Of a DNA stretch of 64,000 nt, positions 8,446 through 19,932 are shown one piece after another (within the stretch, counting starts at the first letter, position 1; the number at the start of each line of letters is the position of its first letter). Origin of the DNA: Candidatus Bathyarchaeota archaeon (GTDB taxonomy: Archaea; Thermoproteota; Bathyarchaeia; Bathyarchaeales; SOJC01); assembly GCA_023131225.1 (NCBI GenBank), contig JAGLZW010000010.1, forward strand, positions 1 through 64,000, read 5' to 3'. Position numbers and translations under genes: made by a program. The notes below the pieces were generated by a model that was not told where the DNA came from, ran no database searches, and worked only from the letters and a program-made list of their open reading frames with translations.

Positions 8446-8877
8446 TTATTCTTTGACTCGAGTCTCTACAGTTCCTTGCGATTGCGTTTTCCCGAATATT
8501 ATTCGAGTGGGTTTAGGTTTCGTGAAGGTTGCTGGAGTTGAAGGTGGATGTGGGCTTTTGAGGTTTTCGCAATGCTTTGAGACAATTAGGTAAAGTCGGT
8601 CTCTGAGGTCTATTCCTATTGGTTTTAATTCTTTGAGTTGTTTGATTTTGCTGGCTAAATTGTTGTCTTCTAGTGTTTCAGTAATCCACTTTTCAAAATC
8701 CTTTCTGTAAAGGTGAAACTCCAAAGATTTGATGTCTATATCTAGAATTTTCTTGACAAACTCTTCTAAAGACGCGGCACTTTCTCCAGTATAGTTTCCT
8801 ATTGAGGTGAAGAAGTAAAAGGCCTTATCTCTGGGAAGGGGTCTTAGAATTCTGGATGTTTTGGGTTCATTCAACAT
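8446..8877 (-). CDS. DUF5752-like conserved archaeal protein
   Basis: Protein of 143 residues convergent with the caspase-like gene. The N-terminal 95 residues (KAFYFFTSIGNYTGESA, then SLEFHLYRKDFEKWI) recall a small conserved archaeal family that I know as DUF5752; its function is unknown. The last 45 residues are proline- and threonine-rich and probably disordered. The start ATG at 8877 has a GGTGA eight nt upstream. The family name is from memory and should be treated as provisional; that it is a real coding gene is more certain. Confidence 0.7.
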   Translation of the reverse strand: MLNEPKTSRILRPLPRDKAFYFFTSIGNYTGESAASLEEFVKKILDIDIKSLEFHLYRKDFEKWITETLEDNNLASKIKQLKELKPIGIDLRDRLYLIVSKHCENLKSPHPPSTPATFTKPKPTRIIFGKTQSQGTVETRVKE

Positions 8878-10216: not shown

Positions 10217-12298
10217 ATGTGTTCTACTACTGCTACAAGAAGGCCCACAACAATGTTAATTCATGAAGTAATCCTCGAAAACTTCATGTCCTACGAATAC
10301 GCCAGAATACCCCTTAAATCAGGCGTAAACGTGATTTGTGGGCCAAATGGCGCAGGAAAGTCATCCATACTCTTAGGCATCTCAATAGCATTAGGTCAAT
10401 CTTACACTGAACGCTCGAGAAAACTAAGCAACCTCATAAGATGGGGAAAAGATCAGGCACGAGTAACAATTGTCTTAGATAATTCTCTGAGAAAAGGCAA
10501 GCGCCCAGTTAAGAGATTTAACAAAGACCAAATCTTCCTAACTCGCGGATTAAGGCGTGATGGAAAGTATTGGTTTGAACTCGATAATCGTGCTGCAACA
10601 AAGAAAGAAGTTGAAAGACTGCTGGCGAAATTCAATGTAGAACCCGACAACCTCTTGATTATTATGCATCAAAACATGACTGAACAGTTTACAGTTCTCT
10701 CCCCTCAGGAAAAACTTGGAATAGTTGAAGCAGCTGTTGGCTTAGAACTTTACCGAAGAAACGTCTGGCAAGCAAGAAAAAAGTTAAGCCACATATTAAG
10801 CGAAGAAGAGTCGGTAAGCAAGCTCCTCGAATCGGCTGAACAAACGCTGAACTACTGGCGCGAACAATATGATCGCTACCAGCAAAAAAAACAACTGCAG
10901 ATAAAAAGGCGATTTCTTGAAAGGGAACTTGCATGGACAGAAGCCTTGAAAAAAGAGACGTCCATGGACGAACTGGAAAATCTGCTTAAAACAGAGGAAA
11001 GAGAACTCCAGCAAATCGAAAACAAAACAGAAACATTGCAGATTACACTTGACGAGCTGCAATTAAAGCTGGAACAATCAAAATCACAGTGGCAAAAACT
11101 CTTTCAGGAACGCCTATCAATAGAAACAGAAAAAGTGAAAAACGAAGCTTTCATTTCGTTAAGAACTCAAGCCCTAGAAGAAATGAGCCAACTATTGGAA
11201 AACAACTGCGAAAAAATAAGCGAATGCATAGCCATGGTTGAGCAGCTGGAAACATCAATCAGCACACAACAAAATCCAAACGACTACATGAAAAAACTTG
11301 CAGAGATAAAAATAATATACAAAAATCTTGAAAACATGTGGATCCAACAACATAGTCAAAAGAGCGAAAACCTGAAAGCACAAAAGGAAATCTACGATGA
11401 ACAGCTTGAAAAAACCGACAAACATCTTTTAGAAACACGAATGAAGACAGAATTTGCTACAAAAGAAATTGAACACCTCACTAACCAAATCATAGACTCG
11501 AAAATTGACGCTGCCCTATTAAACTACAGGAAACGAAACATCGAAAAACATCTTCAAAAACTTCGCAGAGAATTGAAAACCAAAACAAGGGAATATAAAG
11601 AAGCTGTAGAAAAAGCAAAAAAAACTGGTTCCAGAATAGCGTCAACAAAACATGTTAATGAAATTCTAGACGAAATTCGGTTGACTGATGGTTATCTTGT
11701 AGCCCTTGGAGACGTTTCAGAAGACATCGAACGCATGTATGAGTCCTACTCCAAACTCTACCTCGACCTAAAAGAAAAAGCACGAACAGTAGCAGAAAAC
11801 AGAGAAAAAACCTTGGAAGAAGTTAATACTCGAATGGAAGCATGGCACACAGTCATGCAAAATCTCCTTGACCACGTAGGTCTTCAGTACCAGAGAATTT
11901 TGTCGCAAGCTCAGGCTACAAGTGAGATTCATTTGATCAATGGGCATGATATAGAAGCCGCTGGGCTAGAAGTGCTTGTAGGCTTTAGAGGCGCCCAACC
12001 AGTCCCCTTAGATGCCTACACCCAGAGCGGAGGGGAAAGAAGCATGGCTACCATGAGCTTTCTCTTAGCTTTACAGCAGCATGTGCAATCTCCTTTCCGC
12101 GCAATTGACGAATATGACGTCCACATGGACCCGAAAAACCGTGAAACAATAGCTAATCTTCTCATAGAATCAGTCAAGGGCTTAAACTCGCAGTATTTAA
12201 TAATAACGCCAAGCCAAATCACCTTTGCAAAACAAGACATCCACATCATAACTGTGCAGAATGTTGAAGGCGCATCTAGAGTGAAAGAGGCTGTCTAG
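10217..12298 (+). CDS. Smc5/6-like SMC-family ATPase
   Basis: Protein of 693 residues with ABC-type ATPase ends and a long coiled coil. Walker A is GPNGAGKSS (about residues 42-50), the signature is QSGGERSMATMSFLLALQ, and Walker B is PFRAIDEYDVHMDPKNRE. The last two fit Smc5/Smc6 rather than Rad50 or condensin SMC: Smc5 has SGGERSVSTMLYLMALQ with FRVVDEINQGMDP, and Smc6 has FRCLDEFDVYMD. The segment HQNMTEQFTVLSPQEKL also resembles Smc5/6. At 693 residues it is short, and I cannot see a 150-residue hinge in the middle. Start is ATG 10217 or, more like relatives, ATG 10253 (MLIHEVILENFMSYE). The next gene begins on the base after its stop. Confidence 0.8.
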   Translation: MCSTTATRRPTTMLIHEVILENFMSYEYARIPLKSGVNVICGPNGAGKSSILLGISIALGQSYTERSRKLSNLIRWGKDQARVTIVLDNSLRKGKRPVKRFNKDQIFLTRGLRRDGKYWFELDNRAATKKEVERLLAKFNVEPDNLLIIMHQNMTEQFTVLSPQEKLGIVEAAVGLELYRRNVWQARKKLSHILSEEESVSKLLESAEQTLNYWREQYDRYQQKKQLQIKRRFLERELAWTEALKKETSMDELENLLKTEERELQQIENKTETLQITLDELQLKLEQSKSQWQKLFQERLSIETEKVKNEAFISLRTQALEEMSQLLENNCEKISECIAMVEQLETSISTQQNPNDYMKKLAEIKIIYKNLENMWIQQHSQKSENLKAQKEIYDEQLEKTDKHLLETRMKTEFATKEIEHLTNQIIDSKIDAALLNYRKRNIEKHLQKLRRELKTKTREYKEAVEKAKKTGSRIASTKHVNEILDEIRLTDGYLVALGDVSEDIERMYESYSKLYLDLKEKARTVAENREKTLEEVNTRMEAWHTVMQNLLDHVGLQYQRILSQAQATSEIHLINGHDIEAAGLEVLVGFRGAQPVPLDAYTQSGGERSMATMSFLLALQQHVQSPFRAIDEYDVHMDPKNRETIANLLIESVKGLNSQYLIITPSQITFAKQDIHIITVQNVEGASRVKEAV

Positions 12299-13117
12299 TT
12301 GTCAACAAAAAGGCAAAAGAAACGGCTGGGCAGAGAGCATCTTCAACGCATCATCGATTCATGCCGCTCAGTTGAAGAGAGGGGTCTAGACCCATTTCTA
12401 GTGGACGTGGACCACATACTTACAATCATCCACGAGTATTTTCCAGAATGGGAAAACCCAGAAGAACTCTGCCTAGACGCAGAGGCTATACACGAATTAG
12501 CCTCGGCCATTAAGCATCAAAGCGAATGGATTAAACACCGCTCAACATCACTTTACACAGACCCCTTCCTAATAGAAGAAAAGCTTCGAAAACTGTCAAA
12601 AGAAGAAATTGGCACAATATTCCTCAAAAGTTGGCATCCAATAGTGGAACTCGAACAAATTTCGCCCCACAGCCTAATGGAGGCAACCAAATACTGGCAA
12701 AATCTAATTCCACTTAACGAAAGATGGCAAGAAACAGCAGGGCTACAGGCAGAAACTGGAACCACAACACACGAAGAACTGCTGAAACAGCAGATCATAA
12801 CTGAAAAAGAGTTTTCCAAAGAACTGGAAATGTTCTGGCAAGAACTCAAACAAAGAACGATGAGTGAAGAGAAAATGGATTACTGGGATTTTATAGGCGC
12901 CAAAACCTATGAAGAAACAGTCAGACGTGCATACATGACAAGTTTTCTCGTTACATATGGTTACGCAACGCTGGAGGTAGACAGGTTAGAAGAAATGGTA
13001 TACATTAGGTCCTACAAAACTCCCATTCCTACAGTGGGCAATAAGCAGGCGATTTCTCTGCCTATCCCAGTAAGCGTTGAAGACTGGAAAAATTGGATGG
13101 AAGGTGTGAAAGATTGA
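12299..13117 (+). CDS. Putative kleisin-like subunit of the SMC operon
   Basis: Helical protein of 272 residues that starts with TTG immediately after the SMC stop (GAGG eight nt upstream). The N-terminal part (DPFLVDVDHILTIIHEYFPEW) and paired helices resemble the region in which kleisins such as ScpA or Nse4 bind the SMC neck. The middle is charged and probably flexible. The C-terminal part (YEETVRRAYMTSFLVTYG, then LEVDRLEEMVYIRSY) could form a small winged helix that touches the SMC cap. No single motif proves this; the call rests mainly on position between an SMC and a kite-like gene and on overall shape. Its stop overlaps the next start. Confidence 0.5.
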   Translation: MSTKRQKKRLGREHLQRIIDSCRSVEERGLDPFLVDVDHILTIIHEYFPEWENPEELCLDAEAIHELASAIKHQSEWIKHRSTSLYTDPFLIEEKLRKLSKEEIGTIFLKSWHPIVELEQISPHSLMEATKYWQNLIPLNERWQETAGLQAETGTTTHEELLKQQIITEKEFSKELEMFWQELKQRTMSEEKMDYWDFIGAKTYEETVRRAYMTSFLVTYGYATLEVDRLEEMVYIRSYKTPIPTVGNKQAISLPIPVSVEDWKNWMEGVKD

Positions 13118-13665
13118 AGAAGAAAACGTATTACGCCACCAAAGTAAAACAAGCTACTCACCTGCTTTTTTTTAAACGTCACAGAAAGCCCGGAGTAAAA
13201 GGCTGGGAGTTAAGGAAAAGATTAGGAGTAGGCTATCCAAAAATCATGGCTTTACTAAATAGCCATCTTGAAAATCTAGACCTGCAGGTGAAGACTGTTT
13301 TCGAAGAAACAAAGCCACCAGAGAAACCAACTAGGACGCAGTTGGATGGAGCACGATTTTACATAACTCTGCGCGGAGGGCTTACTCCAAAGGAGACAAA
13401 GATGATGGGGTGGCGCATTGATGACATAGCAGGCTTGGCTGTAACTATTTCCACAATAATATCGAAGAAAGGGAAGGCCTCCAGAGAGGAGGTGGAGCAG
13501 CTTCTACGGGATAAACTGCCAGGTTGGAGAGTTAATGCTAACATAGACCGTTATATGCGAGCAGGCTACGTAGACCAAGACGAGAAGGGACAGCTTTACC
13601 TAGATTGGCGGACTAGAGCAGAAATAGACGAGAAAACTTTGATAGATTTGCTAATTGCGAAATAA
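13114..13665 (+). CDS. Kite-type winged-helix protein (Nse1/Nse3/MAGE-like)
   Basis: Protein of 183 residues starting at TTG 13114, inside the stop of the previous gene (TTGA overlap), with AAGGTG seven nt upstream. An N-terminal winged helix (GVKGWELRKRLGVGYPKIM) is followed by a second unit with KGKASREEVEQLL and YMRAGYVDQDEKGQ. The end, LYLDWRTRAEIDEKTLIDLL, resembles the MAGE homology domain end (FLWGPRAxAE, then a helix), which Nse3 carries. Kite proteins bind kleisins in ScpAB, MukEF and Nse1/3/4 complexes. With its neighbours it completes the SMC, kleisin and kite set. The family call is by eye and needs structure comparison. Confidence 0.55.
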   Translation: MKKKTYYATKVKQATHLLFFKRHRKPGVKGWELRKRLGVGYPKIMALLNSHLENLDLQVKTVFEETKPPEKPTRTQLDGARFYITLRGGLTPKETKMMGWRIDDIAGLAVTISTIISKKGKASREEVEQLLRDKLPGWRVNANIDRYMRAGYVDQDEKGQLYLDWRTRAEIDEKTLIDLLIAK

Positions 13666-14828: not shown

Positions 14829-15845
14829 TTACCGATTCTTCTTTTCCGCCCAAAACGGTTTAGTCCGTAAATACTGGATTTTCGCCTTCAGAAGGTCCAT
14901 GTAAAATTCGTCTTCAATTCGCATTCTCGCCTCTCTGGACAATGAACCATGATGCACCGCAATATCATCTGTAAGCAAACTAAACCTATGTCCTAACATT
15001 TCAGCGTTGGTTCGACTGTTTACGAAGATAAGTGTCGATGAATGTTTTCTAACTAGGTCAAGCATATGTCTAATTCTTGCAGCGGCTTCAGGTGCGGTTC
15101 TCAATTTCTGAGCAGAATCATAATCTACATCTGTAGGAGTTGGGTATTCAACAGTGTATATATAGCCTTTAGGTAGCGAAATGCCAAGAACCTTAATAGG
15201 TCTGCCAGTGCCTGCGACGAATTTAGCAGCTTTTTCAGGACTTTCTACAGTTGCTGACAAGCCTATCCGCTGAAAATTCCTTCCAGCGAGCTCAGCAAGT
15301 CTTTCAAGACCTACCGAAAGTTGTGTTCCATGCTTACTTGTTGCTAGCTCGTGTACCTCATCAATTATTATGCAACGTATATGGCTAAGATGTTTTTGCA
15401 TTCGTGAACCAGGTAATATCGCTTGAAGAGTTTCAGGAGTGGTAACCTGAATGTCTGGTGGCTGAATTGCTTGTTTTCTTCGAATTTTGGTTTCGGTGTC
15501 GCCGTGGCGAACTTGTACGGAAAGGTTGAGTTTTAATGCCCAATAAGACAAGCGTTTTATCATGTCACGATTTAGGGCACGAAGGGGAGTAATGTAGAGA
15601 ACTGAAATTCCCTGTCTTTTTGGCTGTTCGAGAATTTTTGAGAATAAGGGAAGAAGAACAGCTTCTGTTTTGCCACTTCCAGTTGGTGCGACTAGGAGGA
15701 TATTTTTACCTTTCAAAACAAAGGGAATAGCTTTGACCTGCGGTTCTGTGGGTTCAGAAAGCCCTAGCTTTTCTAAAATATCTTGAATAGGCTTGGCTAG
15801 CAGTTTGAAAACTTGAGCTTCTTCCTTCAAACTAAAACCTAACAC
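14829..15845 (-). pseudogene. lhr: Truncated Lhr-type DEAD/DEAH helicase
   Basis: The 338-residue product has the start of an Lhr superfamily-2 helicase: motif I APTGSGKTE near residue 53, TPLRALNRDM (Ia), TTPETLQAIL (Ib), motif II DEVH, motif III GLSATV and the Lhr-like HHGSLSREARMRIEDEF of motif IV. The family similarity then ends, and the frame closes 19 residues later. Motifs V and VI and the roughly 500-residue C-terminal Lhr region are absent, and I find no trace of them in the following 190 nt. The gene therefore looks cut by a deletion. An ATPase without the second half of RecA2 is unlikely to unwind DNA. Confidence 0.82.
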
Positions 15846-16410: not shown

Positions 16411-17067
16411 ATGTCAGAAAGATTTGCTAAACGATGGGAAGAAGCCCCAAATCAGCAACCATTCACAACTAAGATTAAGGAATCTTTGAAACCACCAGGT
16501 CCTCTGAAACCGCGACTTGACACGGCGATCAGACGCATCGAACTTCAAGTTCAAAGGCTTGACCAAGCAGGCGAACGCTTCTCAGAACGAGACAAGAAAA
16601 TCTTCGCCAGAATAGTTGACGCCTACACAAAACATGACATGGCACGTGCAAACGTTTTCGCAAACGAGCTTGCTGAAATACGAAAGATGGAAGAAATGAT
16701 AATGCATGGAAGGCTTGCCTTAGAGCAGATTGTGCTAAGGTTAAGAACAGTTTCTGAACTCGGCGACATTGTAACAACACTTGCTCCTGCAGTTGGAGTA
16801 TTACGCAGTGTGAAGAGTGGCATGTCAGCGATATTTCCTGAAGCCGAAAGAGAGTTAGGACAAATAGGAAACATGTTGAACGGCATAATGATTGATGCTG
16901 GTCAAAGCAGCGGATTGACAATCAACTTTGAATCGGCGAATGAAGACGCTCAGAAAATCCTTGCGGAAGCATCCTCAGTAGCAGAGCAAAAAATCAAAGA
17001 GAAATTCCCAGAGCTACCTGCAGCAATCGCCCAAGTTGGAGAAAAGTCTTCCACCAATACAGCTTAG
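16411..17067 (+). CDS. cdvB1: ESCRT-III-like protein (CdvB paralogue without winged helix)
   Basis: ESCRT-III/Snf7-type helical protein of 218 residues that should assemble into filaments at the division site. The basic first helices (RLDTAIRRIELQVQRLDQ, ERDKKIFARIVDAY) and the ANVFANELAEIRKMEEMI helix pair are the typical CdvB core. The C-terminus carries a longer helix and an ELPAA stretch but no winged-helix domain, as in the CdvB1/B2/B3 paralogues of Sulfolobales. A strong GGAGG lies ten nt before the ATG. It is the first gene of the cluster cdvB1, cdvA, cdvB, cdvC, with 25 nt to cdvA. Confidence 0.88.
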   Translation: MSERFAKRWEEAPNQQPFTTKIKESLKPPGPLKPRLDTAIRRIELQVQRLDQAGERFSERDKKIFARIVDAYTKHDMARANVFANELAEIRKMEEMIMHGRLALEQIVLRLRTVSELGDIVTTLAPAVGVLRSVKSGMSAIFPEAERELGQIGNMLNGIMIDAGQSSGLTINFESANEDAQKILAEASSVAEQKIKEKFPELPAAIAQVGEKSSTNTA

Positions 17068-17092
17068 ACACACAGGGAACAGGTGATTCACT

Positions 17093-17857
17093 ATGTCTGA
17101 ATCGACATCCAACCTTTTTACCTATCTCGGCAAGCCGGTAAAAGACGAATACGGCCACATCATCGGCACAATGGCATCATTCCTGGTTACTCCAGGAGGA
17201 AGAATAAACGGAGTATTCATAGAACACGGGGACGGTGACATCAAACAATATTCAAGCGACCAAATAAAGACAGAGAACGATGAAGTTGTACTATTTGCGC
17301 CACTTAAAATGAAAGCCAACAATTTCTGCAACCAAATCCCGCTTCTTTGGCGGAAAACCCAAGCCATAAAGGACTTGAACGAAAAGAAGAAGATTCCTGA
17401 AGACATGTACAGCGACTTGTACTCCAGCTTTGAAGGTGCGTTGAACCAGTTAAAAACAGAAGCAGAAGACACAATTGCAGGCGTTGAGAAAGAAATCCAA
17501 GATTGCACTCAACGAGTCAAAGAACTCAATTCAGCCCTAATTAATCTGGAAATCGAACGAGAGATAGAACAAATCGATGAAGAATCCTACCAAACTGCTA
17601 TAGAGATGGTGAAAGCAGGACTCAAACGAATTAACGCAGAGAAGAACGACTTTGAAACACTAAAAGGTAAATTATCCAATATGCTTCTAGGCGAAACACA
17701 AAAAGAAACTCTCGAAGAAAAGATCGAAGAAACACTTCCTGTGCCAAGCAGCGAATCCTTAGACACTTCGCTTCCAGAACCACCCGAATCCCCCGAACCT
17801 TCTGGGGAATCCCCCGTCGTAGTGTATGTGAAAAACGTCGACCAACCAAGTCCTTAA
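17093..17857 (+). CDS. cdvA: CdvA-like PRC-barrel/coiled-coil division protein
   Basis: Protein of 254 residues. The N-terminal PRC barrel (about 8-75: YLGKPVKDEYGHIIGTM, then GGRINGVFIE) is followed by a coiled coil (about 105-200) and an acidic, proline-rich linker. It ends with SPVVVYVKNVD, a short beta-like tail. CdvA of Sulfolobus has the same order and uses a C-terminal peptide to bind the winged helix of CdvB, so this tail is the likely counterpart (inference). CdvA recruits ESCRT-III to the membrane at mid-cell. SD GGTGAT lies six nt before the ATG. The next gene follows in the same frame after the stop. Confidence 0.85.
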   Translation: MSESTSNLFTYLGKPVKDEYGHIIGTMASFLVTPGGRINGVFIEHGDGDIKQYSSDQIKTENDEVVLFAPLKMKANNFCNQIPLLWRKTQAIKDLNEKKKIPEDMYSDLYSSFEGALNQLKTEAEDTIAGVEKEIQDCTQRVKELNSALINLEIEREIEQIDEESYQTAIEMVKAGLKRINAEKNDFETLKGKLSNMLLGETQKETLEEKIEETLPVPSSESLDTSLPEPPESPEPSGESPVVVYVKNVDQPSP

Positions 17858-17887
17858 ACACGAAAAGGCGGGCGGAGGGACAGAACT

Positions 17888-18769
17888 ATTCGAAATTTCT
17901 TTCGTTCAGAGCCTCCACCCCTCAACGAAGTTATTGTGAAGTCTATTCGAAAACTTAAAATTCAACATTCAAAGCTGGAACAGGTGTACATAAGACTTCA
18001 TAAAAGAGATAAAACTCTTTTCAGGGCATGTACCTTCGCGTTAGAAAAAAAGAATAATGCACGCGCCGCGATGTGTGCTAACGAACTGGCAGAGGTTAGA
18101 AAGCTCATAAAGCTGCTTTCCCACACGCAAATCGCGATAGAACGCATAATCATCAGATTAGATACTATCAAAGAACTCAGCACCATAATGGTAGACCTCA
18201 AGCCAGCGTTGAACGCTCTCAAAAACGTCACAACCAACCTAGTCAGCATAATGCCTGACATTGCCTCTGAATTGGACAAAGTCAACAATAGCATACAAGA
18301 AACACTCACCGTAACCAAGCTTTCCTCCGAGCCACCAACCATACTAACTAACATGAAAACTGCTGCTGGACAAGAAATCCTCAAGGAAGTCAACATGGCT
18401 TTGCAACAAAAATTAAATGTACAACTGCCCGAACCACCCGTCTCGGAAGTGTTGCCAAAGATCATGCAACCAGAGCGAATCAAGGAAATGGTTGCTTTGG
18501 TTGCTGCATGCCCACAATCGAGTGGAGACAAGCAGAAAGAAACAACTGAAGCTTTTCTTTCGATTAAAGATGTGAAAATGCAAAGCATCTCCCTCAGAAT
18601 TCAACATTCTGAATCCATGCAAGACAAACTGCTCGAGTACGTTAAGCAATGTAATGGCCAAATAGACGTCACTGAATGTGCACTAAAGTTGAAAATCCCA
18701 CCCAAAGAAGTGGAAAAAACATTGAAAGAACTTGATGCTAAAGGAAAAATAATTATCGGAACATGTTAA
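17888..18769 (+). CDS. cdvB: CdvB, ESCRT-III with C-terminal winged helix; apparent ATT start
   Basis: The Snf7-like core (KLKIQHSKLEQ, RDKTLF, ANELAEVRKLIKLL) is followed by a proline-rich QLPEPPVSEVLP stretch like a MIM2 motif for the Vps4 MIT domain, then a C-terminal winged helix (LLEYVKQCNGQIDV, KIPPKEVEKTLKELD), the CdvA-binding part in known CdvB. The first usual start is GTG 17936, but sixteen codons upstream read as real sequence (FFRSEPPPLNEVIVKSIRK) and align with PPGPLKPRLDTAIRR of the paralogue at 16411. The only SD, GGAGGG, is eight nt before an ATT at 17888. I place the start there; GTG 17936 is the conservative choice. Confidence 0.88.
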   Translation: MRNFFRSEPPPLNEVIVKSIRKLKIQHSKLEQVYIRLHKRDKTLFRACTFALEKKNNARAAMCANELAEVRKLIKLLSHTQIAIERIIIRLDTIKELSTIMVDLKPALNALKNVTTNLVSIMPDIASELDKVNNSIQETLTVTKLSSEPPTILTNMKTAAGQEILKEVNMALQQKLNVQLPEPPVSEVLPKIMQPERIKEMVALVAACPQSSGDKQKETTEAFLSIKDVKMQSISLRIQHSESMQDKLLEYVKQCNGQIDVTECALKLKIPPKEVEKTLKELDAKGKIIIGTC

Positions 18770-19932
18770 AAATGAGTGCTTCTCAAGAACTTGAAAAAGC
18801 AGCGACAAACTACGCGTCCGAAGCTGTTAGATTGGACAAACAAGGCTCAAGGGGAATGGCTATCACGATGTACCAGAGAGCCATAGAAACGCTACTAAGA
18901 ATAGTACACTTGTATCCTGACTATGGCTTAAACAAAGTCTACATACAACGTGCAATGGCATATCAAGAAAGAGTCAAAGTGCTACAAGGCGGAATGCCTC
19001 TAAGGCCAGATGTAGAGAAAAGACCTGCCGACACTACAGAACCTCAAGAAGCTGGAAAAGCAAGCTACGATGAACTAATAATGCAGGAAAAACCTAACGT
19101 AAAATGGCCTGATGTCGTCGGTCTGGAACCAGCGAAAAAAGCCATAAAAGAAGCAATCGTTTACCCAGTTCAGAGACCAGATCTGTTCCCCCTAGGATGG
19201 CCCCGAGGAATACTCCTCTTTGGACCACCGGGCTGCGGAAAGACTTTGCTGGCAGCCGCTGTCGCCACAGAAATAGACAGCAACTTCATATCTGTTGACG
19301 CAGCGTCAATAATGTCCAAGTGGTTAGGAGAAGGCGAGAAGAATGTCGCGCAACTTTTTGCATCTGCGAGAAAGTCTGCTAATAATGGGAAACCTTCCAT
19401 CGTGTTCATTGACGAACTAGACTCTTTGATGGGAAGACATTCTAGTGAAGTTGGCGGGGAAGTTCGTGTACGAAACCAATTTCTTAAGGAAATGGACGGT
19501 GTTATTGATAAAGGTAAAAGTCTGCACGCATACGTAATAGGTGCTACGAATCGACCTTGGGATCTGGATTGGCCATTTATCAGAAGATTTCAGAAGAGAA
19601 TCATAGTGCCATTGCCTAACCATCATTCAAGGCTGCAGATGTTTAAACTTTACACCAGTCATTTGAACCTGAACCCAAACATGAGTCTTCACGAATTGGC
19701 CAGGCTTTCAGAAGGGTTTTCAGGAAGTGATATAAAAGACTGTTGTCAGTCAGCCTACTTGAGAGTCATCGGTGAATTCTTCGAGTCTGGACGAGTAAAT
19801 GATAAACGAGCTAAGCCTAGACCCGTAACTATGGACGACTTTCGACAAATACTTGAAGATCGGAAGCCAAGCGTTTCCCTTGACATGGTTGCATCCTACA
19901 CCAAATGGTTTGACGCTTTTAAGGCACTCTAG
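18763..19932 (+). CDS. cdvC: CdvC / Vps4-type AAA ATPase
   Basis: ATPase of 389 residues that remodels ESCRT-III filaments. The N-terminal MIT domain (about 5-75, three helices with QGSRGMAITMYQRAIETLLR) is followed by a linker and one AAA module: Walker A GPPGCGKT (154-161), Walker B IVFIDELDS (213-221), and RPWDLDWPFIRRF with the arginine fingers. A Vps4-like C-terminal helix closes the protein. It overlaps cdvB by seven nt if ATG 18763 is used, or starts at ATG 18772. The overlap indicates coupled translation with its substrate. Confidence 0.95.
   Translation: MLKMSASQELEKAATNYASEAVRLDKQGSRGMAITMYQRAIETLLRIVHLYPDYGLNKVYIQRAMAYQERVKVLQGGMPLRPDVEKRPADTTEPQEAGKASYDELIMQEKPNVKWPDVVGLEPAKKAIKEAIVYPVQRPDLFPLGWPRGILLFGPPGCGKTLLAAAVATEIDSNFISVDAASIMSKWLGEGEKNVAQLFASARKSANNGKPSIVFIDELDSLMGRHSSEVGGEVRVRNQFLKEMDGVIDKGKSLHAYVIGATNRPWDLDWPFIRRFQKRIIVPLPNHHSRLQMFKLYTSHLNLNPNMSLHELARLSEGFSGSDIKDCCQSAYLRVIGEFFESGRVNDKRAKPRPVTMDDFRQILEDRKPSVSLDMVASYTKWFDAFKAL

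Follow-up and report, generated by a model that had tools for sequence, protein, structure and literature searches.

An archaeal three-gene set that very probably encodes a hinge-less SMC-kleisin-KITE complex of the Smc5/6 type

The stretch of DNA analysed here, called the window throughout, comprises positions 1 to 64,000 of contig JAGLZW010000010.1 (contig C10 in our numbering) from the 1.9-Mb, 50-contig genome of a Candidatus Bathyarchaeota archaeon (assembly GCA_023131225.1). On its plus strand lie three genes whose products, we infer, very probably assemble and function as one ATP-driven SMC-kleisin-KITE complex of the Smc5/6 type. The first open reading frame (ORF), at 10217..12298, specifies a 693-residue SMC-type ATPase of the Smc5/6 type with a short coiled coil and no detectable hinge, an assignment based on the ORF itself, a match to Pfam SMC_N (4.2e-32), the ranking of sequences in the PDB and a tree of ATPase heads. 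The second, at 12299..13117, encodes a 272-residue kleisin of the Nse4 type, identified by Pfam, profile and fold matches, and the third, at 13093..13665, encodes a 190-residue tandem winged-helix (KITE) protein that carries no RING and is predicted from its AlphaFold2 (AF2) model to be of the MAGE/Nse3 and Nse1 type. An earlier note on this DNA had described an operon of three abutting or overlapping genes, and this description holds: the three ORFs lie where it placed them, the TTG start of the kleisin gene is directly 3' of the SMC stop codon, the KITE ORF overlaps the kleisin ORF by 25 bases, and the three proteins total 1,155 residues. The true SMC start is more likely the ATG at 10253, the methionine it encodes (M13) being almost unchanged across 30 orthologs.

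The ATPase head belongs with those of Smc5 and Smc6. The Walker A motif GPNGAGKS (residues 42-49, 10340..10363) and the ABC signature SGGERS within TQSGGERSMATM (12026..12043) were located in the ORF and by alignment, and the Walker B motif FRAIDEYDVHMDP, with its Smc5/6-type arginine, by alignment (12095..12133), all on the plus strand. The signature and Walker B had been said beforehand to have the Smc5/6 form, and the motifs quoted at that time (GPNGAGKS, TQSGGERSMATM and SPFRAIDEYDVHMDP) are all present in the ORF. Searched against the PDB as a single sequence, the protein scores nearly level with Smc5 (107 bits), Smc6 (105 bits) and an archaeal canonical SMC (105 bits). When a profile of 43 family members (A6) is used, ranks 1 to 10 among the best 60 of 79 matches are taken by ten distinct Smc5 or Smc6 sequences at 192-236 bits, followed within the same best 60 by Pyrococcus SMC (184), Smc2 (146), Smc3 (133), Smc1 (119), Smc4 (111) and Rad50 (54 bits); the source species of these chains we take to be yeast, human, Pyrococcus and B. 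subtilis. In the reverse control, the heads of an Asgard canonical SMC matched Smc1-4 at up to 163 bits and Smc5 at 30-33 bits, at the bottom of 59 matches, and no Smc6 at 1e-5.

Head phylogeny, which the earlier note had proposed as a check, puts the ATPase in the company of Smc5/Smc6, away from canonical SMC and Rad50, in a tree that did not include RecN and with Rad50 left standing by the approximately unbiased (AU) test taken alone. The tree was built from 53 heads and 410 columns (IQ-TREE, LG+F+R4), loci L238 and L231 being excluded because no Walker A was found in them. It recovers the hinge-less ATPase family as a clade (99.4/100), and this clade groups at 100/100 with one Smc5, two Smc6, the short Asgard SMCs and the Asgard sequence L234. 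The long Asgard SMCs join the Smc5/6 group at 96.3/99, canonical SMCs form their own clade (99/100), and the family stands apart from Rad50; the order within the Smc5/6 group has ultrafast bootstrap support of 68-73 only, with the long-branched L234 beside Smc5. In constrained trees on a reduced set of 34 rows, from which L234, L233, L242, L239 and 15 of the 25 family rows were dropped, the AU test rejected the grouping of the family with canonical SMCs (p 0.014), the Shimodaira-Hasegawa (SH) test giving 0.062. Two residues were tallied as well: the arginine before Walker B occurs in 25 of 25 family members, in both eukaryotic Smc5/6 sequences and in none of 25 others, and again in 21 of 21 additional family ATPases, and an asparagine in the Q-loop region is shared by all 25 family members, all three eukaryotic sequences and 7 of 10 Asgard ones, and is absent from the 15 sequences of canonical, bacterial or Rad50 type.

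Nse4 is the nearest match of the kleisin. A Pfam Nse4_C match (5.6e-4) spans residues 199-268 (12893..13102, plus strand) within a C-terminal winged helix that would bind the head cap, and at E up to 1 the same family is matched by 32 of 33 close members and by 35 of 51 diverse members (best 3.3e-7). Class-wide, at 0.01, matches occur in 29 of 61 genomes, and in one of 14 control genomes, there below the cut-off. ScpA is absent from the 22 Pfam families matched by the 33 kleisins, and the positive control, the genome's own canonical kleisin, matches Pfam ScpA at 1.6e-6. A profile of diverse kleisins searched against 177,635 PDB sequences retrieves Nse4 (3.2e-6) and EID3 (1.2e-4), then ScpA (0.012), and a wider profile retrieves Nse4 (1.7e-5) and EID3 (1.1e-4), then 4i99_C (0.0048) and ScpA (0.0087). 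The AF2 model (predicted local distance difference test, pLDDT, 82.5) has a helical domain at its N-terminus and a winged helix at its C-terminus; the former (residues 4-85, 12308..12553, plus strand), with a weak ScpA-N match (E 0.23), is the putative neck binder. Among 350,542 chains the best two Foldseek matches of this model, 7qcd_F and 7tve_G (6.5e-5 and 8.9e-4), are both Nse4, followed by the C-terminal domain of ScpA (ScpA-C) and then, from 0.05, by chains of condensin and cohesin structures, and in VIA comparisons a Z of 9.9 is reached with 7tve_G (Nse4) and with 8t8f_G (98 residues, root-mean-square deviation (rmsd) 2.8), the latter from an entry holding Nse4.

The third protein is, by its predicted fold, a KITE of the Nse1/Nse3 (MAGE) type, and its sequence is suggestive of the same assignment. 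The model has two winged helices (pLDDT 84.6; predicted template modelling score, pTM, 0.69; the five models range 55-85). Four Foldseek rows fall under 0.001, namely two chains of one MAGE-G1:NSE1 entry, 7dg2_C and MAGE-A4. The VIA Z is 13.3 to 7dg2_C, a MAGE-domain protein of an Nse1-Nse3-Nse4 complex (167 of 190 residues, rmsd 3.6), 10.9 to 5hvq_C, which is an Nse1 chain, and 9.8-11.0 to further chains in Smc5/6 entries, and lower to a MukBEF chain (9.0), a Wadjet JetABC chain (8.5) and ScpB entries (8.2-8.7). At E up to 1, the two commonest Pfam families among 51 KITEs are MAGE (12 proteins, best 0.0016) and SMC_Nse1 (10, best 1.2e-4), and a MAGE-domain protein and two Nse1 sequences are among the best seven PDB matches of profile A7, at E 0.09-0.23. 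A RING-like CxxC was seen in none of the 51. By predicted fold, one partner is a kleisin most like Nse4 and the other a KITE most like MAGE/Nse3 and Nse1, and of the earlier description of the KITE as Nse3-like, the MAGE/Nse3 likeness by fold is borne out, with the qualification that the protein is equally Nse1-like.

Several results weigh against an Smc5/6-type assignment. The AU test does not reject a grouping of the family with two Rad50s (p 0.142), nor the other inner orders that were tried. The Nse4_C match of the window kleisin scores 20.6, below the cut-off of 26, which only 3 of the 61 genomes exceed, and the pTM of the kleisin model is 0.44. In the VIA comparison ScpA-C comes close behind Nse4 with a Z of 8.9, and the ranking of Nse4 above it is a weak one because the two differ by about 1. 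Winged-helix regulators of a generic kind align with the KITE model at Z values of up to 9.4, and the KITE profiles A2, A5 and A7 gave no significant KITE match in the PDB, the top rows being an unrelated antigen or a designed repeat protein.

An improbable alternative, which nevertheless deserves to be weighed, is that the set is a divergent archaeal complex resembling Smc-ScpAB, whose partners look like those of Smc5/6 through the shared ancestry of KITE-type SMC complexes. Canonical Smc-ScpA(B) shares with the window set the SMC-kleisin(-KITE) plan and the fold of the ScpA C-domain, and it is this domain that follows Nse4 in both sequence and fold searches; the Z values of ScpB entries against the KITE model and the SH value for a family-plus-canonical grouping point the same way. 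Set against this, canonical complexes have canonical heads, a hinge and a ScpA kleisin, unlike the window set, and the same genome already possesses a separate canonical SMC with a hinge and an adjoining Pfam ScpA kleisin. The heads, moreover, fall with Smc5/6 at 100/100, the AU test rejects their placement with canonical SMCs, and neither the Walker B arginine nor the Q-loop asparagine occurs in any of the 13 canonical archaeal and bacterial SMCs sampled. The excerpted text of PMC7055376 describes the Smc-ScpA of archaea as kite-less.

The association of the three genes is more than chance, as it is kept at every place examined among relatives of the same order and the three genes have ratios of nonsynonymous to synonymous substitution rates (dN/dS) of 0.09-0.22. 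The kleisin occurs in 32 of 41 genomes (the source genome and relatives of its order), and at all 32 fetched places kleisin and KITE stand together with the ATPase adjoining, three of the ATPase ORFs being partial (L036, at a contig edge, L041 and L049). In comparisons with two relatives the ATPase gene gives dN/dS values of 0.18 and 0.10, the kleisin gene 0.17 and 0.19, and the KITE gene 0.22 and 0.09. Phylum-wide, the kleisin was found in 123 of 299 genomes and 62 of 128 genera; at 40 of these places, picked to span families, the KITE profile matches in all and the ATPase profile in 36, two of them cut by contig edges (L109, L111). The conservation in related genomes that the earlier note asked about is thus present in both samples. 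In L124 the ATPase lies about 2 kb off on the opposite strand, in L108 about 2 kb separate kleisin and KITE, and of the four genomes with no ATPase nearby three have one elsewhere and one (G307) has none. Complete three-gene sets are also present in a Thermofilales, a Thaumarchaeota UBA160 and a Bathyarchaeota record.

A case of co-occurrence without adjacency comes from the phylum to which Natronococcus belongs. Here the kleisin is found at E 1e-51 or better in 22 of 196 genomes, a count that leaves out 28 further weak matches (50 in all). At each of the 11 places fetched from the 22 the KITE adjoins the kleisin, all of these stretches being without the ATPase; a whole-genome search of the 22 returned a full-length ATPase (706-742 bits) in 18, on another contig than the kleisin in 17 and about 5 kb from it in G660. 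The remaining four comprise two genomes with pieces of the ATPase at the ends of contigs, that of G703 adjoining the kleisin, and two with no ATPase. That the three genes continue to co-occur even when unlinked indicates that their products most likely act together. A second SMC match at 1e-10 was found in none of the 22 (G727, G779 and others), with a profile that in a control detects the canonical SMC of genome G209 at 7e-29, and the hinge-less ATPase may on this account be the only SMC of these genomes.

Some departures from the usual arrangement were also recorded. Genome G010 has a second kleisin-KITE copy (L041, 5471-7308) with only a 136-residue C-terminal SMC piece upstream. Within the order loss is patchy, the kleisin being missing from all four sampled genomes of genus g20 (G024, G030, G033 and G039; 95-97% complete) and likewise from some genomes of genus g25. 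The kleisin matches of G067, G101, G111, G163 and G358 cross one in-frame TGA, perhaps a natural stop near the C-terminus.

A defence complex of the Wadjet/MukBEF type, cutting or excluding foreign DNA, is a very unlikely identity for such a set. The SMC-kleisin-KITE plan is shared with MukBEF, MksBEF and Wadjet (JetABCD), PADLOC models of JetC and mad3 match the ATPase (4e-13 and 3e-24), the neighbouring ORF at 8446-8877 (Pfam DUF5752) matches JetA weakly (0.0078 over 46 residues), and the KITE model aligns with a JetABC chain at the Z of 8.5 given above; PADLOC models, however, do not match the kleisin or the KITE at E up to 10, so that neither partner is recognised as JetA or JetB, JetD is not among the matches listed for seven window proteins, and a defence system would not usually be retained across an order and across a phylum.

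The most unusual feature of the ATPase is its middle. The coiled-coil region (residues 241-470, 10937..11626, plus strand) contains one proline and no glycine, and its tip is gappy and poorly conserved, with neither a hinge nor a CxxC hook. Among the 43 members the stretch between the conserved bases of the arms measures 110-233 residues (median 130), with low conservation and occupancy at the tip; L054 and L060, unlike the window ATPase, have 15-16 glycines and prolines together in a similar stretch. No match to the Pfam hinge (PF06470) was obtained in the window ATPase at E up to 10, or in L050, L135 and L136 at E up to 1, the same model detecting the hinge of the genome's own canonical SMC (3e-19) and those of Asgard relatives. 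A hinge profile built from five hinges matched by Pfam (threshold 0.01) found none in 67 family ATPases, the window's included, and none in 21 further ones, 18 of them from the second phylum (0 of 88). It matched 16 of 20 controls, missing two Rad50s, one bacterial SMC and L234; in the run with the 21 further ATPases, two fragments cut from the canonical SMC of G209 likewise escaped it (E 0.13). Eukaryotic Smc5/6 has a hinge (PMC5290277, in the part of the text available). As the Asgard relatives keep one too, the simplest reading is that the hinge was lost in the ancestor of this ATPase family.

The absent hinge, the weak matches to all of the NCBIfam models for Rad50, ASRP and arcadin-4, and the failure of the AU test to reject Rad50 might suggest a repair ATPase of one of these kinds beside two unrelated winged-helix proteins, a reading that has very little probability given that the scores (77.6, 47.8 and 37 bits) compare with cut-offs of 700, 300 and 860, that a CxxC hook occurs in the arm middle of none of the 43 members, and that the partners resemble a kleisin and a KITE. 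ASRP (coalescin ClsN, Sph) and arcadin-4 are likewise archaeal SMC-like ATPases, from which the window ATPase differs by the lack of a zinc hook and by model scores far below the cut-offs; most ASRPs carry such a hook, according to the excerpted text of PMC9389158.

How an Smc5/6-type set of this make-up might work can be suggested by analogy with Smc5/6 and ScpAB structures. SMC dimers normally form through the hinge. The earlier note had expected a homodimer, which fits the finding of a single Smc5/6-type ATPase gene: a search of the genome returned this one and the canonical SMC, and so not two different ATPases corresponding to Smc5 and Smc6; what the expectation lacks is the hinge, the usual dimer interface. 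Two copies of the ATPase would sandwich ATP between their heads, the kleisin would grip one copy at the neck by its N-terminal helices and the other at the cap by its C-terminal winged helix, and the KITE, probably dimeric and seated on the middle part of the kleisin, would press DNA onto the top of the engaged heads. The absence of a hinge means that there would be no hinge-closed ring of arms, leaving a head-kleisin-KITE ring and a DNA clamp as the presumed working compartments; any contact between arm tips would be of another kind. The clamp is carried over from structures of Smc5/6 and MukBEF as reviewed in PMC10512200, in the portion available. Since a separate canonical SMC with a ScpA-type kleisin is present, the set may represent a second, Smc5/6-like machine for chromosome upkeep, which would serve to organise or repair the chromosome alongside canonical Smc-ScpA. 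In its neighbourhood lie genes for a DEAD helicase and an ATP-dependent DNA ligase, a Rad50-like ORF and a CdvA/ESCRT-III/Vps4 cluster.

With the core of eukaryotic Smc5/6 (Smc5-Smc6-Nse4-Nse1-Nse3) the set has in common the type of head, the Walker B arginine, a kleisin of the Nse4 type and a KITE of the MAGE/Nse3 and Nse1 type, and it differs in having one ATPase gene, one KITE in the operon, no RING-like CxxC, no hinge, short arms and an operon devoid of Nse2, Nse5 and Nse6. It is a variant of the Smc5/6 type rather than a version of the eukaryotic complex itself, because it has no detectable hinge, no zinc hook and a single KITE that resembles both Nse1 and Nse3. One KITE was seen in the operon, no search for a second elsewhere in the genome having been made, and Nse2, Nse5 and Nse6 were not among the annotated neighbours, no genome-wide search having been made for them either. 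As one KITE gene resembles both Nse1 and Nse3, the single KITE would fit a state before the two split. A more far-reaching proposal, offered tentatively and with rather less than even confidence, is that the set preserves a single-copy precursor of Smc5/6, with one ATPase, one Nse4 and one KITE ancestral to Nse1 and Nse3 that were later doubled in eukaryotes; in most of the archaea found to carry it the complex would work without any hinge, and the clamp of heads, kleisin and KITE would then be the essential part of an SMC machine and the large hinge-closed ring dispensable.

Relatives were also found in Asgard archaea. At 0.01 the kleisin profile matches 14 of 195 Asgard genomes, and in four of the 12 places fetched (G509 and G539 being left out), namely L231, L232, L233 and L236, the ATPase, kleisin and KITE genes stand in order. 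The ATPase profile at 1e-45 matches 5 of 227 Asgard genomes, including G547 (1158 residues) and G585, the latter fetched as L275 and representing a fifth three-gene set. These five operons have the gene order of the window set; their ATPases, unlike that of the window, are about 850 residues long (L231 is cut by the contig start) and have a hinge, detected by Pfam in L232 and L236 and by our own hinge profile in L231, L233 and L275. They also differ from the window family in the Walker B arginine, present in none of the three aligned. The kleisins of L232 and L236 have no Nse4_C match, and the KITEs of L231, L232 and L236 match mainly generic winged helices, that of L231 also MAGE (0.098). The weak kleisin match of L237 was rejected as of the canonical type, with neighbours that are Pfam ScpA and ScpB; the weak Asgard matches are partly ScpA.

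Further gene arrangements were noted at the Asgard loci. A long ORF lies upstream of the ATPase in L232, L233 and L236, with a Pfam AAA+ match in the two that were scanned, L232 and L233, where it overlaps the SMC ORF; AAA+ genes precede the SMC-kleisin operons at L232 8572-9996, L233 2368-3810 and, in loci of the long Asgard type, L235 1871-2983 and L241 1411-2529, and it is possible that they encode a fourth subunit or a loader. L234 (5824-11563) is a four-gene cluster with a 1057-residue SMC of degenerate signature (HSSGQK), whose head falls beside Smc5 on a long branch, a 323-residue protein with no Pfam match at 0.01, a 322-residue kleisin (Nse4_C 0.0014) and a 191-residue protein.

The earlier note held that the operon would bear on the origin of the eukaryotic complex. 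The presence of a whole Smc5/6-type set in an archaeal operon agrees with this; the existence of archaeal Smc5/6-related ATPases was, on the other hand, already known from phylogeny, reportedly by Yoshinaga and Inagaki in 2021. Such ATPases are described in the accessible parts of PMC9389158 and PMC10003631, the second repeating the first and each citing that 2021 work. In the excerpts of PMC9389158 the archaeal SMC5/6-related SMC occupies the same phylogenetic position as the window ATPase and is treated as an ATPase alone, no partners being named. In the literature searched, no archaeal Nse4, Nse1 or Nse3 was among the matches listed and no paper joined Asgard, Smc5 and kleisin; the van Hooff 2024 preprint on the prokaryotic roots of SMC complexes may report partners. 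What the three-gene set adds to the known ATPase relatives is these partners, and with the whole set available a state before duplication becomes testable by phylogeny and biochemistry. The missing hinge makes the set a natural experiment on the need for a closed ring of arms in SMC machines, a matter central to loop-extrusion models, and a stripped-down Smc5/6-like set bears on which parts of the eukaryotic machine are needed. With three proteins and 1,155 residues it is also a compact target for reconstitution.

Beyond the set, scans of the window for Rfam families and for tRNAs came back empty. The Rad50-like ORF, recognised by an SbcC/RAD50 Walker B match, stands right at the beginning of the contig (37-1980). 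At 14829-15845 lies the DEAD-box helicase gene (338 residues), whose best PADLOC match is BrxHI (1.8e-63) over positions 13-295 of 698, so that the gene is perhaps shortened or broken. Some 3 kb downstream of the set, at 16411-19932, are CdvA, two ESCRT-III (Snf7) proteins and a Vps4-like AAA protein with a MIT domain, which together form an archaeal cell-division cluster.

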